Below, piece by piece: positions 32,844 to 40,752 of a DNA stretch of 50,210 nucleotides. Source of the stretch: Nitrospira sp. (GTDB lineage Bacteria > Nitrospirota > Nitrospiria > Nitrospirales > Nitrospiraceae). The stretch covers positions 1-50,210 of the forward strand of contig VGXC01000024.1 of assembly GCA_016873495.1 (NCBI GenBank). Reading direction: 5' to 3'. The notes under the pieces were generated by a model that was not told the DNA's origin, ran no database searches, and worked only from the letters and a program-made list of their open reading frames with translations. The first letter of the stretch is position 1. Each line of letters starts with the position of its first letter. The translations under genes were made by a program, and so were the position numbers.

Positions 32844-35800
32844 TCATGATACCAGAATCGCGGCGACTTGGCTCCACGCGCCGGACGGCAGATACCGATA
32901 GAATACGCCTTCCTCCGGCTCCAGCGCCACCAGGTGGACCCATTCGTGATGATAATAATGCTGCAGGACCTCGTGCCGCGCGATCAGGGCCTCGATGCGC
33001 GCGCGCGGCGCCTCGATCACCGTCAATAAACGCATGGGTTCATGGTACGGCCGTTCGCCGTTCATCATCGTCTGCCAGGCCAATCCGAGCCGCAGATCGC
33101 TCCACGGCCCGGCCATGATGCCGATGCGCCCCACCACGTTATGGTAAATCTTGCTGCCGCCGCCGTAGACCTCGTTGTCCGAGGCCGAAAAATAATGCTC
33201 CATGTTGATCCATTGTGCCACGACCTGCGGGGCGGTCATCAAGACCTCCAGCAATCGGTTCGTCGGGTCCTCCCGATAATCGTAAGAGTGTAAAAAGACC
33301 CGCCCCTCGAGGTTGAGCGTTCGCGTGAGCGTCCGCCGGCCGATGACGAAGGCCGCGTTCCCCGACAGGCCCCACTCGGGCCGCACCTGGCTCCAGTCCG
33401 CGCTACGCTCGTGCACCGCCGCCGCCGCCCGTTCCGCCGTCAGGCAGGCCGGCAGGTCGGGGAGGCGGCCGCAGCGCTCCAGGCTGGTCCGGAGGCCGGC
33501 TTCCCGCAAATCCGCCTGCAGCCGCGCCACGTCGCCGGCGTGGGTGGCCGGCACGTCGTCCAGATCGAACAGCGTCGTCTCGTCCGTCGTGGTGTCCACC
33601 AGGCCGGCCAGAAAGTGCGTATCGGCGGGGACCGCCAGGCCGTATTTTGCCACCCGCTCCCGGACCTTCGGATTGTTCGCCATGCGGGCGAGCACGCGGG
33701 CATTGGGGCTGCCTTCGTTGCCGCCGCAGGCGCCGCAGTCCAGCGCCGCCTCGAAGGGATTGTTCTCCGACGTGCTGCCGTGGGCGCAGAAGAGGACCAG
33801 CCGCGCGAAATTGTTCGTCAGCCCCATCATGCGCAGCGCCGTGTCCACCGTCAGCGCCTGCTCGTCGAGTGTGAAGCCCGTCCGCGTGATGCGTTCCTTC
33901 TGCGCCGCCGTCCAGCGCCGGTCAATGCGGTGCTGCTTGCGCAGGATGTCCAGAAACGCGGCGAGGCGCTCGTCCGACAGGCCCAGCCGCCGGGCCGTCT
34001 CGCTCACGGCCGGTGCCGGCGCGCCGTTGCCGTCCAGCGCCTGCCGGCGCAGCGCCTCGACGAATTCCGGCGTCACGCGCGAGCCGTGCAGTCCGAGATG
34101 CTCGTGCAGGGCTTTCTGGATGACGGCGCCCTGCTCGTCCGCCAGCATCGCCTCCGTTTCGGCCGGGGCCAGCTTGTCCACCGTAATGCAGGTCTTGAGG
34201 GAGGGTACGATGAGCCGGCGCAGCCAGGCAGCGCCGCGGTGGTAAAGCGCCGGCAGCACGGTCTTGCCGATGATGGGCAGGCTGTAAAACCACCCCAGCG
34301 ACTCCACCATGACGTAGGGCGTGACCACGTTTTCCTTGAGATCGTGCAACAACGTGTGCCCGGCATGGAGCAGCTTGGCCCGCGACGCATGCTTGGAGAC
34401 GACCTGGTCGAGGAAGCTGCGCGGAATCTCGCGCACTTCGTTTTTGGCGCGCATGATCACCGGGAACTGCTCCGTGTCATGCTCCTTGCCCCAGGCCCGG
34501 TAGCGGATGAACACCGCGAAGAATCCGGCGAAGCCGTAAGTCTCGTGCGCGCCGACCGCCTCCAGATGGCGGCGGAACGGCTCCGACCGAACGTCGATGC
34601 AAAAAACCGACTGCGCCTGCGGGCGGGATCGCGCCACCTCTTGTCGGGCAGCCGGTTTCGACGAGGCTCCCGCACCGGCAAGCTGCCCCAGCAGGTGTTC
34701 CTGATAGCCGGCCTCGAAGGCCTTGAGCCAGACCGGGCCGTGGGCCGATTCCGGGAAGGTGTCCATCCATTGCGCGAGCACGGCGAGGTCCTTCGGCGCC
34801 GCCTCCATCACGACGGACTCGTTGAGATCCAGGCTCCGCGCCAGGGCCAGCAACCGCCGCGCCGCCGTCCGTTGCACGGCCCGGTCGTGGCGCGCGCCGA
34901 ATTCCGTCTGGTAATGATCGGCCAGCCATTGCCACTCGTTCCGCCCGCTCCGCGCGAGCCGGTCCACCTGCTCGGCATAGGTCGCCGGCAACCGGCCGGC
35001 CACCCGCTCCCGTCTCAGATAATAGGCCTGCGGCTGCTCCTGCATGTAGGCCATCACCGCCGGATACGTCCCGGCGATCCCCAGCGTCCTGCGGCAGGCC
35101 TGCTCGACCAGCTCCCGCACGTACCACAGGCGGACGGCGAGAAATTTCACCAACCCGACCGGGTTGGCCTTCTGCCATTCGTATTCCCGCTGATCGCCCC
35201 GCCACTTGATGAAGCCGGCCCAGCCGGGCAGGGCCGCCAGTTGGAGCGACAGATAGTCCTGTCGGAACTCGTGGGGAATCGCGAGGGCCGCCAGGCTGTC
35301 GAGCACCGCGTCTTCCGGATGCTCCGGCAGGCTGGCGATTTTCTCCCGGCTGTCTTCGATGCCGCTGAGCGACCATTCGTGCGCGGCGAGCGCTTTCCAC
35401 GCCCCATAGAAATCCTTCTCGCGGCCGGGCATGGGCCACGTGGCATGACCCTCGTCCAGAAACGCCTCGCACCATTTGATAAGCTCGCCGTTCACCTGTT
35501 CCACGATCTCGGTGTCCAGCGTCCGGTCGCACCATTTGGAGAGCGTCACGGAATGTCCCAACGAGGCCTGGTCCTCCCGCACGGCCGCGGCCATGCGCTC
35601 GTGCAGGGTCGGGCACGTCACGACGGAGGCCAGATAGCCGGCCAGATGCTCGATCAGCGGCTGGTCCGGTCCCTGTGCCAGCAGCGCATCGAACGGCTCC
35701 TCGACCGGTTCGCAGAGCCCATGCGTCAGACAGGCGCGCAGGACCTCGCCGTGCGACACGCGGCGTGAGCCCAGCATCACTTGCGCGTCGCGCACCAGCG

Positions 35801-36077
35801 GGGCCAGGGCCGCATCGAGATGTCGGGACGCGATCCGCCCCTCCCCGACATAGGTCCGGTAGGTCCGGCCCGGCAGATAGCCCTGTCCCCCCAGCAGGCG
35901 CCGGCCACGCTCCACCGTTTCGTCGAACCGGAGGTATTCGAGGCTGTGTAGCGGATTGTGATGCACGAAGGTCCGCATCGGCCAGTACTGGGCGATGACC
36001 TCGCTCGAGAGGCGGATCAAGCCGCGCAACTCCATCCGCTGCGTGTCGGTATAGGACGTGGCCTTCATCGGATCCAT
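32844..36077 (-). CDS. dabA: DabA inorganic-carbon transporter catalytic subunit (DUF2309)
   Basis: A 1077-residue soluble, membrane-associated subunit with a beta-carbonic-anhydrase-like zinc site. The conserved pieces are VFCIDVRSEPFRRHLEA (about residue 490, Cys and Asp) and FCAHGSTSENNPFEAALDCGACGG (about 762, His and Cys), which together give the Cys-Asp-His-Cys set known for DabA. With its membrane partner it turns entering CO2 into bicarbonate in one direction, powered by a cation gradient. The start at 36077 (MDPMKATS) has GGGAGG six bases upstream and overlaps the NuoM-like stop by 13 bases. The length is at the long end for the family. It feeds carbon fixation in an autotroph. Confidence 0.95.
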   Translation of the reverse strand: MDPMKATSYTDTQRMELRGLIRLSSEVIAQYWPMRTFVHHNPLHSLEYLRFDETVERGRRLLGGQGYLPGRTYRTYVGEGRIASRHLDAALAPLVRDAQVMLGSRRVSHGEVLRACLTHGLCEPVEEPFDALLAQGPDQPLIEHLAGYLASVVTCPTLHERMAAAVREDQASLGHSVTLSKWCDRTLDTEIVEQVNGELIKWCEAFLDEGHATWPMPGREKDFYGAWKALAAHEWSLSGIEDSREKIASLPEHPEDAVLDSLAALAIPHEFRQDYLSLQLAALPGWAGFIKWRGDQREYEWQKANPVGLVKFLAVRLWYVRELVEQACRRTLGIAGTYPAVMAYMQEQPQAYYLRRERVAGRLPATYAEQVDRLARSGRNEWQWLADHYQTEFGARHDRAVQRTAARRLLALARSLDLNESVVMEAAPKDLAVLAQWMDTFPESAHGPVWLKAFEAGYQEHLLGQLAGAGASSKPAARQEVARSRPQAQSVFCIDVRSEPFRRHLEAVGAHETYGFAGFFAVFIRYRAWGKEHDTEQFPVIMRAKNEVREIPRSFLDQVVSKHASRAKLLHAGHTLLHDLKENVVTPYVMVESLGWFYSLPIIGKTVLPALYHRGAAWLRRLIVPSLKTCITVDKLAPAETEAMLADEQGAVIQKALHEHLGLHGSRVTPEFVEALRRQALDGNGAPAPAVSETARRLGLSDERLAAFLDILRKQHRIDRRWTAAQKERITRTGFTLDEQALTVDTALRMMGLTNNFARLVLFCAHGSTSENNPFEAALDCGACGGNEGSPNARVLARMANNPKVRERVAKYGLAVPADTHFLAGLVDTTTDETTLFDLDDVPATHAGDVARLQADLREAGLRTSLERCGRLPDLPACLTAERAAAAVHERSADWSQVRPEWGLSGNAAFVIGRRTLTRTLNLEGRVFLHSYDYREDPTNRLLEVLMTAPQVVAQWINMEHYFSASDNEVYGGGSKIYHNVVGRIGIMAGPWSDLRLGLAWQTMMNGERPYHEPMRLLTVIEAPRARIEALIARHEVLQHYYHHEWVHLVALEPEEGVFYRYLPSGAWSQVAAILVS

Positions 36078-37357
36078 GCGTCGCCTCCCGCCACCTGGGC
36101 CGGCGACGCCGGCGCGCCGGGCTGAAAGACGCGGGCCGGCGCCAGGCCCAGGGCGAACAGGATGAGCATCAGCGCCAGCAGCGCGGCGAACTCGGTCCGG
36201 CCGAGATCCTCGTACCGCAAATCCGGCCGGTGCCGGCCAAAGAGCAGCCGCTGCAGCAGACCAAGGTAATACCAGGAGGCTGTGAGCCAAACGAGCACGA
36301 TGACCGCCAGCGCGCCGGACAGCGGCAGCCCCGGCGTCAGCAACAACCCCATGAATCCAGCGAAGACGCCGAAGGGCGGCAGCCCCAGGGCTGCCAGCGC
36401 GAGCAGCGCGAAGAGCACGGCAAAGCGGGGCATAGGCTGGGCCAGTCCCCGGATTGCGCGCAGATCCATGTCGCCATAGCGGGCCCTGATCGCATACCAG
36501 GCCTGCAGCAATCCATTGGTGGCGAGACCGACGGCCGCCAGATACAGCACCGCCTGCGGCGGCGCGGTCCGCATCGTCGCGACATACCACCACAGCATGG
36601 AAAAGAACGACAGGTTGGCATAGGCCAGCAGCGCGCGGACGCGGGGTTGGGCCAGCGCTTTCAACGCGCCATAGACCGCGCCCACAAGCCCCAGCCACGG
36701 CAGCGCGTCACGCGCCGAGTCCGGCAGATGCGGGAACACCGCCAGCAGACCGTGAAACCCGAGTACGGGCAGCAGGCAGGCCAGAAAGGCGGGCAGATTC
36801 CCCGGCAGCCCCGCCAGCGCCGCGACGTACCCAGCGTGCACGGGAGCCAGCGGCAGCAGCATCGCGTAGACAGCCAGCACGGCCACAGCGGACACCGGCG
36901 GCGCCGCCACCAGTCCCAGGACGAGGCAGACCACCCCGCATGCGTAGATCCCGATGCCCTGCCACAGGTGGGAAACGGACAACGCGCGATAGCGGTAGAG
37001 CAGCGCCACCAGCACGATCAGGAGCAGCGCCGAGAGAATGAGCCCCATGCCGTCCTGGGCGGTCAGCATGCTCAGGCCTAGGCCCAGGAGCAACAGCGTC
37101 AGAATCCAGGCGGCGCGGTTGTCTTCGTGCGCGGGCTGTCCCAGCAGCGAGAGGCACGCGGCGATCGGCAGCAGCATCGGCAGAGACACGCCCGCCGCGG
37201 CGCCGGACGACGCCACGAGCAGCGCTAGGCTTGCGAGGGACACACCCACCGCCAAGACTTTCAATGCCGCCGGCTTGGACCAGACCGCGAACCCCGCCAC
37301 GGCTCCCGCCACGGAAACCGCCGCCGGCAGCCAGAGCGACAGCCCCTCCGCCATCAC
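36065..37357 (-). CDS. NuoM/MrpD-like antiporter subunit of the carbon-uptake operon
   Basis: A 430-residue membrane protein with about 13-14 helices of the proton-antiporter family (NuoM/NuoN/MrpD). Examples are LALLVASSGAAAGVSLPMLLP, GLILSALLLIVLVALLYRY and RFAVLFALLALAALGLPPFGVFAGF, the last being the typical G-x-P-P-x-x-x-F-x-x-K/G region. It is shorter than NuoM (about 500). It lies between the NuoL-like gene (ATGA overlap at 37354) and dabA (13-base overlap), so it is certainly part of this operon. DAB systems are usually described with one antiporter-like subunit; here there are two. Confidence 0.85.
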   Translation of the reverse strand: MMAEGLSLWLPAAVSVAGAVAGFAVWSKPAALKVLAVGVSLASLALLVASSGAAAGVSLPMLLPIAACLSLLGQPAHEDNRAAWILTLLLLGLGLSMLTAQDGMGLILSALLLIVLVALLYRYRALSVSHLWQGIGIYACGVVCLVLGLVAAPPVSAVAVLAVYAMLLPLAPVHAGYVAALAGLPGNLPAFLACLLPVLGFHGLLAVFPHLPDSARDALPWLGLVGAVYGALKALAQPRVRALLAYANLSFFSMLWWYVATMRTAPPQAVLYLAAVGLATNGLLQAWYAIRARYGDMDLRAIRGLAQPMPRFAVLFALLALAALGLPPFGVFAGFMGLLLTPGLPLSGALAVIVLVWLTASWYYLGLLQRLLFGRHRPDLRYEDLGRTEFAALLALMLILFALGLAPARVFQPGAPASPAQVAGGDAWIR

Positions 37358-39060
37358 CGCGACCCTCCAAACGAATGCTTGTCCAAACCGTGGGCCACCC
37401 GCATGATCCCCCGGCCGAGCCGGTCGTGCAGCGCGTCAATATACAGCCGGTTCATGAGCAGCACATAGAGGCGGACCCGCAGCGCCTGCACCCAGGCCGG
37501 CAGCGGCATCGCCCGCCCGTGGGCCTGCGCATAGAGGTAGACCCAGCTCAGGACGGTCAGCAGCGTCGTCCCGACCACCAGGCCGTCGAACAACGGGCCG
37601 GGCAGCGCCGCTGCCTGGAAGTAGCGGGTGACCGTGGCCGGGTCAGGATACAGGAAATGCGTGAAGGCCTCCGCGGCGAACAGATAGGTGAAGACCACGA
37701 AGAGCAGCGTGGACAACATTGCGACCGATACCTTCCACGAGGCGACGGCGCGCAAACGCGTCAGCGTCAGGATGGCCTGCGAGGAGGTCACCCAGATGAA
37801 GAACAGGAAAATGACCGTCCCTTGCGTATCCCAGAGGGGAATGCGCAACACGCCGTGGGTCAACAACAAAATGACCAGCGGGATGAGGAGCGACGTCAGC
37901 ATGCCCGTGAGCCAGGTCAGGCGGGACAGTTCGGGCGCTTCCGTATCATGCGTGTTGTGGGGGAAGGTCGGCTCCTGACGCACTTTGTGAATCACGTTCC
38001 CGCAATTTAGAAAGACGGTGCCCTTAAAGATGCCGTGCGCGATGAGGTGGAACACCGCCAGTGCGAAGGCCCCCAAGCCACATTCCATGATCATATAGCC
38101 CATCTGGCCAATGGTCGAAAAGCCGAGCGTCTTCTTGATGTCGTTCTGCACCAGCATCATCGACGCGCCCAGCACGGCCGTGAGCATCCCGACGGCGAAC
38201 ACGACGTGCAGCGTCGTCGGGCTCAATCCATAGAGCGGCGCCAGCCGGTTCAGCAAAAACCCGCCCGCGTTGATGATCCCGGCGTGCAGCATGGCGTGAA
38301 CCGGCGTGGGTGCGTAGAGGGACCCCGGAAGCCAGATATGCATGGGTAACTGGGCCGACTTTCCCATCGCCCCGATGAAAATCAGCAGCGTGACGGCCGT
38401 GGCGCCGCTGATCTCCAGTCCCGGCAGAGGCGACAGGACGACCGGCACGGCCGCCGCCCGCTCGAACAGCTCCTGGAATTCCACCGTGCCATAGAGGGCA
38501 TGGGCCATCACGATACCCATGAGAAAGGCCATGTCTGCCGCGCGCAGGAGGGTGAAGGTCTTGAAGGCGCCGTTGAGCGTGGCTTGGTGCGTGCGATTGT
38601 GCGAAAGCAGGTACAGGAGCCAGGACAGCACCTGCCAGAACACGAACAGCATGAGCAGATTCGCGCTGGACACCATGCAGAGGAGCACGAAGGTCGTAAA
38701 GGCGATGAGCCCGAGGTACCAATGGTAACCACGATCCTGGTGCATGTGGCCTGTGGAATAGAGATAGATGAGCGTACCGACCAGCGAAATCAGCGTCATC
38801 ATCACCGCGCTGAGCCGGTCGAAATAGAAACCCACCGGCAGCGCCAGTCCGCCGGCCCCCGGCTCGTAGAACCGCACACTGACCGGGCCCTGCGTGGATA
38901 CCGCCAGCAACGTCAATACCGTCCCCGCACAGGCCGCGACAATCGGCAGCGCGCCGATCCAGGCCTGCCGTTCGCGCAGGCGAGATCCGGCCACCCAGAT
39001 GAACAGGGCAGCCGCCAGCGGGAACAGCGGAACAAGAATCATGAACGACATGCCCGACAT
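37354..39060 (-). CDS. dabB: DabB-type NuoL/MrpA-like membrane subunit
   Basis: A 568-residue membrane protein of the proton-conducting antiporter family, with about 14-16 helices. It has the core sequence FIGAMGKSAQLPMHIWLPGSLYAPTPVHAMLHAG (split here: GKSAQLPMHIWLP and PTPVHAMLHAGIINAGG), as in NuoL and DabB. The conserved Lys, Glu/Asp and His of the proton path are present. The start at 39060 is preceded by GGAG six bases upstream. It is the first gene of a four-gene operon ending with the PII-like gene. Its leader contains a terminator-like hairpin ending only about 20 bases before the start. Confidence 0.9.
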   Translation of the reverse strand: MSGMSFMILVPLFPLAAALFIWVAGSRLRERQAWIGALPIVAACAGTVLTLLAVSTQGPVSVRFYEPGAGGLALPVGFYFDRLSAVMMTLISLVGTLIYLYSTGHMHQDRGYHWYLGLIAFTTFVLLCMVSSANLLMLFVFWQVLSWLLYLLSHNRTHQATLNGAFKTFTLLRAADMAFLMGIVMAHALYGTVEFQELFERAAAVPVVLSPLPGLEISGATAVTLLIFIGAMGKSAQLPMHIWLPGSLYAPTPVHAMLHAGIINAGGFLLNRLAPLYGLSPTTLHVVFAVGMLTAVLGASMMLVQNDIKKTLGFSTIGQMGYMIMECGLGAFALAVFHLIAHGIFKGTVFLNCGNVIHKVRQEPTFPHNTHDTEAPELSRLTWLTGMLTSLLIPLVILLLTHGVLRIPLWDTQGTVIFLFFIWVTSSQAILTLTRLRAVASWKVSVAMLSTLLFVVFTYLFAAEAFTHFLYPDPATVTRYFQAAALPGPLFDGLVVGTTLLTVLSWVYLYAQAHGRAMPLPAWVQALRVRLYVLLMNRLYIDALHDRLGRGIMRVAHGLDKHSFGGSR

Positions 39061-39079
39061 GAGCTTCTCCGCACGCAAC

Positions 39080-39128
39080 AAAAAAGCCAGCCGACGCCCT
39101 GGCAGAATCCAGGGGCGTCCGCTGGCTT
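39080..39128 (-). terminator. Leader terminator/attenuator before dabB
   Basis: On the minus strand a 19/20-base stem (39128-39109 with 39102-39084; AAGCCAGC...GCTGGCTT and CGCCCCTGG...CCAGGGCG) has a 6-base loop and is followed at once by six T residues (39085-39080). No minus-strand gene lies upstream, so it can only act on the dab transcript itself, about 20 bases before the dabB start. Confidence 0.65.
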
Positions 39129-39356
39129 GTACTGCGGCCGACCTCCTACAAAAAAAGAAGGAAGCCGGCTACCCTACTGCCGTAATCGTTGAACTCTATC
39201 GAGCATGGGTCCGCTTATCTGGCGTGACAGGACGGCGGCCCCACCGTTTGCAATTCTTCGAGCCGGTGTCATACCATAGCGAGTCGGAATGCACAACCTG
39301 CCATTAGGCTCAACAGCGGTGGGTCTTTTGGGTCAAGCCATGGGACATGAGGGCCA
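39129..39356. other. Divergent leader/promoter region of dab operon and DUF2294 gene
   Basis: This is the rest of a 296-base gap. On the minus strand a T-rich segment (39150-39165) and a TAGGAGGT (39148-39141) not followed by a normal start codon lie in the leader. A weak promoter TTGTGC-17-TATGAC is seen near 39296-39268. I recognise no known riboswitch. Confidence 0.3.
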
Positions 39357-39728
39357 GTGAAAATCGGACAGACGAAAGGCGAAGCGGAGAGCGCCATTCG
39401 CAACGCCATTATCAAATTCGAGCAAGAATTCATGGGCCGGGGGCCGGAGGACGTGCGGGCCTTCATCATCAAAGACATCGTACTGGTTCGCCTGAAAGGG
39501 GTTCTGACGCCGGCCGAACGGCAGCTCGCCAAGACGGCCGAAGGCATCGAGATGGTGCGGCGGCTGCGGCAGAATCTGATTGCGCAAGGGCGGGAGAAGC
39601 TCAGTCAGCAGGTAGATGACATCGCCGGCGCCAAAACGATCGGCCTGTTTACCGACATCGACACCCAGATCGGCGAACGGATGATCGTCTTTACCCTGGA
39701 CCGCGATATCGAATCTACGTTCTCATAG
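39357..39728 (+). CDS. DUF2294 family protein
   Basis: A 123-residue cytoplasmic protein. The segments KFEQEFMGRGPEDVRAFIIKD, IVLVRLKGVLTPAERQLAKT and GLFTDIDTQIGERMIVFTLD match DUF2294 (E-F-x-G-R-G-P-E, L-K-G-x-L-T-x-A-E and H/F-T-D-I). The family's role is unknown; members are small and occur next to carbon or one-carbon metabolism genes. It starts at GTG 39357 with GAGGG just upstream. It is divergent from the dab operon and may share its regulatory region, so a link to inorganic-carbon status is possible. Confidence 0.8.
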   Translation: MKIGQTKGEAESAIRNAIIKFEQEFMGRGPEDVRAFIIKDIVLVRLKGVLTPAERQLAKTAEGIEMVRRLRQNLIAQGREKLSQQVDDIAGAKTIGLFTDIDTQIGERMIVFTLDRDIESTFS

Positions 39729-39743
39729 CCCCGTCGCATTTGC

Positions 39744-40730
39744 CTACGCGTAGCCCTGGTCACGGAACCAGCGCACGGCCTTTTCCAGCGCCACTTCCAC
39801 AGGAATCTGCGGTTGGCCCAATTCCCTCGCCGCCTTGCTGCAATCGTAATGCATCTTGTACTTGGCCATCTTGACCCCCTCCAAGGGAATGCGGGGGGCT
39901 TGGTGCGTGATGTGGTCGGTCAGCCACTGGTTGGCGTAGGCCAGCGGCAGAATGGCCATCCGGGGCAGTTTGATCCTCGGCGCCGGGACCCCGCTCAGGC
40001 GGCTGAGAATCTCGAAGATCTCCTTCAACATCAGGTTCTGGTTGCCCAGGATGTAGCGTTCGCCCAGGCGCCCCCGCTCCATGGCGTGGATATGGCCCGC
40101 CGCCACGTCCTCCACGTCGATTAGGTTCATGCCGGTTTCGATGTAAGCCGGCATGCGGCCTTTCATGAAATCCACGATCATCTGGCCGGTGGGAGTCGGC
40201 TTGATGTCCCGCTCGCCGACGGGGGCCGAGGGGTTGACGATGACCACCGGCAGGCCTTCGCGCGCCAGCTTCAGCACTTCCTGCTCGGCCAGGTACTTGG
40301 ACCGTTTATAGTCTCCGGCCATCTGGGCCAGCGACACCGGCGTCTCTTCCGTGCCGAGGCCGCCGCCCTCAGGCAGCCCGATCGCGCCGATGGTGCTCGT
40401 ATAGACGATGCGCGCCGTGCCGGCGGAGCGGGCCGCTTCCATGAGGGTGCGGGTGCCGGTCACATTGATGTCGTAAAAGACGCGAGGATCTTGAGCCCAG
40501 AGAGCATAGTGGGCGGCGACGTGGTAGAGCTGCTGGCAGCCGGTCAGGGCGCGGCGAAGCGAGGCCGGGTCGCGCAAATCCCCCGGGGCCCGTTCGACGT
40601 TCAAACCGTCCAGGTTGCGAAGGTCGCTCTCGGGCCGGACCAGCACCCGCACCTCCGTGCCGGATGCCGCGACCGAACGGGCGACGGCTGCGCCCACGAA
40701 TCCTGTCGCGCCGGTGACGAGAGCTTTCAT
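39744..40730 (-). CDS. hpnA: HpnA, hopanoid-associated sugar epimerase
   Basis: A 328-residue NAD(P)-dependent short-chain epimerase/dehydratase. The Rossmann motif GATGFVGAA sits at about residues 6-14. The catalytic Y-x-x-x-K is in GDYKRSKYLAE, with a preceding Ser/Thr in YTSTIGAIG. INVTGTRTLMEAA, PSAPVGERDIKPTPTGQMIV and GRYIL-like GERYILGNQNLML match HpnA of hopanoid clusters, which is thought to act on the polyol head group. The start is ATG 40730. It is co-oriented with, and 89 bases from, the FPP synthase gene, a precursor supplier for hopanoids. No squalene cyclase is in the window. Confidence 0.9.
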   Translation of the reverse strand: MKALVTGATGFVGAAVARSVAASGTEVRVLVRPESDLRNLDGLNVERAPGDLRDPASLRRALTGCQQLYHVAAHYALWAQDPRVFYDINVTGTRTLMEAARSAGTARIVYTSTIGAIGLPEGGGLGTEETPVSLAQMAGDYKRSKYLAEQEVLKLAREGLPVVIVNPSAPVGERDIKPTPTGQMIVDFMKGRMPAYIETGMNLIDVEDVAAGHIHAMERGRLGERYILGNQNLMLKEIFEILSRLSGVPAPRIKLPRMAILPLAYANQWLTDHITHQAPRIPLEGVKMAKYKMHYDCSKAARELGQPQIPVEVALEKAVRWFRDQGYA

Positions 40731-40752
40731 AGGCAAGAGCGTATGGCGAATG

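Follow-up and report, generated by a model that had tools for sequence, protein, structure and literature searches.

What is a transcription terminator doing directly in front of a transport operon? The window that we analyzed (the whole 50,210-nt stretch of Nitrospira sp. contig VGXC01000024.1) encodes DabA and DabB together (PF10070 and Proton_antipo_M), meeting the criterion for a DAB (MpsAB) operon, with the order dabB, second NuoM-like protein, dabA. A first-pass annotation had noted a hairpin with a six-T run about 20 bases before dabB, with no upstream minus-strand gene for it to end, and had read this as the layout of an attenuator or riboswitch. We infer, from sequence alone, that this hairpin (39128-39084) forms the 3′ end of a conserved, ~180-nt leader RNA. 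The RNA likely acts in cis to control inorganic-carbon uptake by conditional termination, with the hairpin as its expression platform; the support is computed, and switching in vivo is inferred, without transcript or reporter data. The parts of the locus, in source-contig coordinates with the minus strand reading towards dabB, are as follows:

39268 to 39296, minus strand: putative promoter, read from the sequence, with TTGTGC (39296-39291), 17 nt, and an extended -10 element TGG-TATGAC (39273-39268)
39205 to 39245, minus strand: 5′ hairpin (P0), outer stem of the GGUGG/CCCAU type, supported by covariation more weakly than the core
39124 to 39181, minus strand: antiterminator (aptamer-like) hairpin, supported by covariation and GGC-GCC complementarity, consisting of GGC (39181-39179), GUA (39177-39175), the GG/AG internal loop, P2, UAC (39131-39129), AA, and GCC (39126-39124)
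39080 to 39128, minus strand: intrinsic terminator, stem 39128-39084 and T6 39085-39080, supported by sequence, folding and covariation
39067 to 39070, minus strand: Shine-Dalgarno sequence GGAG of dabB, read from the sequence, 6 nt before the ATG
37354 to 39060, minus strand: dabB (NuoL/Mrp-like subunit, Proton_antipo_M by Pfam), ATG at 39060-39058
36065 to 37357, minus strand: second Proton_antipo_M (NuoM-like) protein of the operon, by Pfam
32844 to 36080, minus strand: dabA (Pfam PF10070, 879 bits), start approximate
39357 to 39728, plus strand: mpsC (Pfam PF10057, DUF2294), divergent neighbour and candidate regulator

Folded alone, the terminator stem reaches -35.4 kcal/mol (z = -6.0), and none of 200 shuffled sequences is as stable. 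Since the plus strand lacks a T-run past the stem, the hairpin is a minus-strand terminator. Both structural observations of the annotation held: T6 ends 19 nt before the dabB ATG, and the nearest upstream minus-strand gene, an epimerase (39744-40736), ends ~615 nt away, beyond the opposite-strand mpsC. As these 19 nt also hold the Shine-Dalgarno sequence, transcription is unlikely to start from a promoter downstream of the hairpin. A generic scan of the region found no excess of terminator-like sites (3 versus 4.8 expected); the significance of the hairpin rests on stem strength and conservation. We found no copy of the hairpin elsewhere in the same genome, so it is not a repeated element. 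The 199-nt leader as a whole folds with z = -3.56, and its transcription is predicted to start near 39261. The promoter hexamers here are weak against consensus and an automatic scan chose another site in this sequence, so the promoter call rests on homology: at the matching place most relatives carry TTGACG-15-TATTAT or TTGACT-17/18-GATAAG, 60-90 nt before the core.

Among the four genomes of the same genus, positions 39080-39275 are kept in all four with 85-95% identity to their consensus, and the sequence just past the hairpin diverges. A covariance model built from 28 leaders (R1) matches 119 of 147 Nitrospiraceae genomes, covering 19 of 22 genera and nearly always as a single copy, leaving ~28 genomes without a match. 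At dabB loci of named genomes, the match is present in 76 of 79 cases, always sense and upstream, including those of N. moscoviensis and Ca. N. defluvii. The remaining three are a locus whose contig begins at dabB (L087), L089, and a Nitrosomonas locus (L111). A class-level search showed that two further families of the order carry the RNA, with 1-4 copies per genome. We then searched 396 genomes of the phylum with a refined model (R2, 66 sequences), which matched 115 genomes of the order and, elsewhere in the phylum, just two (G278 and G423, ~30 bits); on reading, these two proved to be terminator-only and were rejected. In the Nitrosomonas class, two of 274 genomes match at 30 bits or less. 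These two matches have not been read, and with that proviso we treat the RNA as likely confined to the order. A 37.6-bit match before a phosphatidyltransferase-like gene (L171, position 1900) lacks GUAGGG...CAGUAC and was not counted.

The terminator of relatives lies a median of ~24 nt from the start codon; these distances come from automatic start-codon assignment, which is wrong in some cases (giving values above 600), an error to which the median is robust. At loci with ~2 kb between the RNA and the dabB match downstream, a second, tandem copy of dabB comes directly after the RNA. Such a duplication occurs in roughly two dozen Nitrospira loci (for example, L090 1004-2797 and L053 1013-2707).

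The core shared by these leaders reads GGC-N(0-2)-GUA-GG-GY(P2)RC-AG-UAC-RA-GCC, followed by a terminator beginning AAGCCA...UGGCUUUU, and its upstream hairpin has the motif GGC-N-GUAGGGY…RCAGUAC-RA-GCC. Across 65 distinct sequences, 94.7% of cells in the whole core are paired, versus 88.3% after shuffling and 21-45% when partners are slid. Doubly changed cells number 120 versus 38.6 in shuffled alignments and fall in 15 of 22 pairs, and none of 500 shuffles reaches any of these measures. The upstream hairpin alone is 92.9% paired, with double changes in nine pairs, and again none of 500 shuffles matches its percentage paired and covariation score. The alignment used (A3) was fitted to an earlier model and thus leans towards structure, although its anchor motifs are nearly invariant; weak degenerate copies before DabA or MnhE in L166, L169, L172 and L174 were left out. 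Within GUAGGG...CAGUAC, G17 and A64 are invariant in 66 sequences. In one clade (L050, L055, L060, L061 and L094), the internal-loop G-G mismatch (A3 columns 16 and 65; GUAGGG / CAGUAC) is replaced by A-A or C-A, suggestive of a conserved non-canonical contact. Support for P0 is weaker: in 29 Nitrospiraceae sequences 71.8% of cells are paired, versus 65.3% shuffled and 32-49% slid, in an uncertain alignment whose register was set by hand. RNAalifold returned no structure from a MAFFT alignment of the 5′ domain, and some members of family f2, which belongs to the same order, have a short P0 or none.

The upstream hairpin and the terminator cannot form together, as GCC 39126-39124 is common to both. 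In 63 of 65 sequences GUA is preceded, at a distance of 0-2 nt, by a triplet complementary to this GCC, versus 3, 2 and 1 of 65 at three control offsets further upstream. When the RNA is cut before the 3′ arm of the terminator, the mean probability that GCC pairs upstream is 0.96; in the full RNA it falls to 0.001, with the terminator at 0.995. The GGC/GCC pair scarcely varies and so cannot be tested by covariation; this pairing rests on position and complementarity. The strong preference of the full-length equilibrium fold for the terminator implies that control must be kinetic or dependent on a ligand or protein. The riboswitch criterion of an exclusive terminator/antiterminator platform is thus met, by computation only. 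The annotation had suggested looking for an alternative antiterminator fold and for covariation in relatives: both are found, the former using the 5′-arm GCC of the terminator and the latter in both hairpins. Its attenuator or riboswitch layout is supported computationally; conditional termination in cells and the signal are inferred and remain undemonstrated.

We next consider the genes behind the RNA. Where a Nitrospiraceae RNA shares a contig with a listed DabA, it lies upstream of DabA on the same strand in 87 of 88 cases, at ~0.1, 3.1 or 5 kb (with one or two intervening dabB genes); the sole exception is a second RNA copy before a SulP gene. No leader was matched to 63 of the 150 listed DabA copies, which are paralogues or belong to other operons. 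Two or three DabA proteins are encoded in some genomes, with just one behind the RNA (for example, G015 contig C1, positions 235291 and 249070). In family f2, separate RNA copies precede SulP (PF00916), DabA (PF10070) and an MnhE-led Mrp unit (PF01899, MnhB, MbhD), giving up to three RNA-led units per genome (three each in L161 and L164). In another genome (G102), a SulP gene occupies the dab position, after the RNA and divergent mpsC. In G053 (L188 548-2902), a distant SulP-family gene and a Usp (universal stress protein) gene replace the dab operon under the same leader, likewise behind a divergent mpsC, and a 72-residue DabA remnant persists downstream. The replacement of dab by SulP under the same RNA points to cis control of inorganic-carbon uptake, not to a free small RNA. 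Two further riboswitch criteria are thereby met: a structured leader 5′ of the regulated genes, and several units of the same function (dabB, dabA, SulP and MnhE units) under one RNA. The known carbon toolkit comprises SulP, SbtA and DAB-type systems (PMC10880623), and SulP proteins of N. marina have been described as BicA-like bicarbonate transporters (PMC8115632). Inorganic-carbon uptake is the likely common theme of the RNA-led units, though SulP substrates in these genomes are unmeasured. In one locus (L103 1129-2028), a gene for a LysR/CbbR-like regulator adjoins mpsC and may add a further level of carbon control.

Searches of the window and 14 related loci against Rfam gave no match at gathering score, and a permissive search gave only sub-threshold hits. 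Among these, the proteobacterial small RNA sX6 (RF02225) matches the leader weakly, at 16.7 bits, but its gathering score is 40 and the match needs very large gaps. The closest mechanistic parallel may be drawn with ON riboswitches of the fluoride, adenine pbuE and lysine types, in which the 3′ strand of an upstream fold likewise overlaps the 5′ arm of a terminator before transport genes; unlike those, the present leader has no Rfam match, its ligand is unidentified, and its core is a single hairpin with two small internal loops. The S. aureus mpsABC operon encodes a homologous transporter, contains a weak terminator and is expressed in a CO2-dependent manner (PMC6689103), but its terminator lies between mpsB and mpsC, and no RNA leader is described as the mechanism.

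Computation shows that the two folds are exclusive, that they covary, that they head inorganic-carbon transport units, and that these units form a shared regulon. How the switch would operate is inferred. In our model, transcription would start ~70-80 nt upstream of the core, and the antiterminator hairpin would form first on the nascent RNA, with the GGC 5′ of GUA pairing with the GCC of AAGCC. If a signal holds this hairpin, the terminator could not close and RNA polymerase would read into dabB; if not, the longer terminator stem would capture AAGCCA and transcription would stop 19 nt before dabB. Because holding the upstream hairpin frees read-through, the signal should turn the genes ON. 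Switching in cells, this ON direction and a signal of low inorganic carbon are all inferred. That the genes are ON at carbon scarcity is presumed by analogy with S. aureus mpsA, whose expression is lower at 5% CO2 (PMC6689103). The sensor may be a small ligand at the internal loops or an RNA-binding protein; in the absence of binding data, we lean slightly towards a ligand. A bolder reading, for which we hold out little expectation, is a riboswitch that senses bicarbonate/CO2, or a metabolite directly reporting carbon shortage in these rTCA-cycle autotrophs; if true, it would be the first RNA found to sense the supply of inorganic carbon.

The strongest rival keeps the same leader and has a protein bind its two internal loops, as in antitermination of the BglG/SacY type, with MpsC the obvious candidate; we consider it a serious alternative that falls a little short of the ligand model. 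In its favor, the leader meets the RAT criterion of an internal-loop antiterminator hairpin overlapping the terminator 5′ arm, and with its two internal loops it resembles the BglG/SacY/LicT RAT in architecture. Moreover, in most related loci mpsC points away from the RNA, and it is strongly conserved (62-91% identity to the window copy); deletion of S. aureus mpsC gave no transport phenotype (PMC6689103), leaving other roles open. Against it, the CAT_RBD domain (BglG-type, PF03123) is found in none of 21 genomes of relatives, this one included, versus 4 of 14 control genomes, and the regulon concerns carbon uptake, not sugar import. A structural model of MpsC (pLDDT 92) has no significant fold match, the protein has no PDB relative by sequence, and it is present outside the order, for example in S. 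aureus, whereas the RNA appears confined to the order.

We regard two further alternatives as very improbable. The first is a free small RNA that acts in trans, is transcribed from its own promoter to its own terminator, and is merely placed before dabB; it would fit the conserved promoter-like site, discrete length and strong terminator. However, the gap of 19 nt here (median ~24 nt in relatives) between terminator and ATG makes dabB dependent on read-through, and the RNA travels with different carbon-transport units and stays when the gene is swapped, neither of which a trans-acting RNA needs. The second is a constitutive partial terminator merely lowering operon expression, which would fit a very stable hairpin whose full-length fold shows almost no antiterminator, but for which both the conserved upstream hairpin (GUAGGG...CAGUAC) and the GCC-complementary triplet would be superfluous. 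Finally, translation-coupled attenuation by a leader peptide is all but ruled out, for although AGGAGG at 39148-39143 resembles a ribosome site within the leader, a Shine-Dalgarno-preceded ORF of at least 5 codons closing before the terminator occurs in only 4 of 32 leaders, unconserved and never in the window. Neither antitermination by a BglG-type protein nor leader-peptide attenuation is supported.

Our preferred reading remains a cis-acting leader with a conditional terminator. As relatives keep the RNA before several unrelated inorganic-carbon transporters, it is probably an undescribed switch deciding CO2/bicarbonate uptake; no description of this leader was found in the literature searched. 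Nitrospira-type bacteria do much of Earth's nitrite oxidation, and comammox, while fixing CO2, and the same literature search found no account of how they tune inorganic-carbon uptake. An order-wide leader before three kinds of carbon-transport unit would offer a ready regulon and a definable sensor, and it marks those SulP and Mrp genes whose substrate is unknown as probably belonging to the carbon-uptake machinery.
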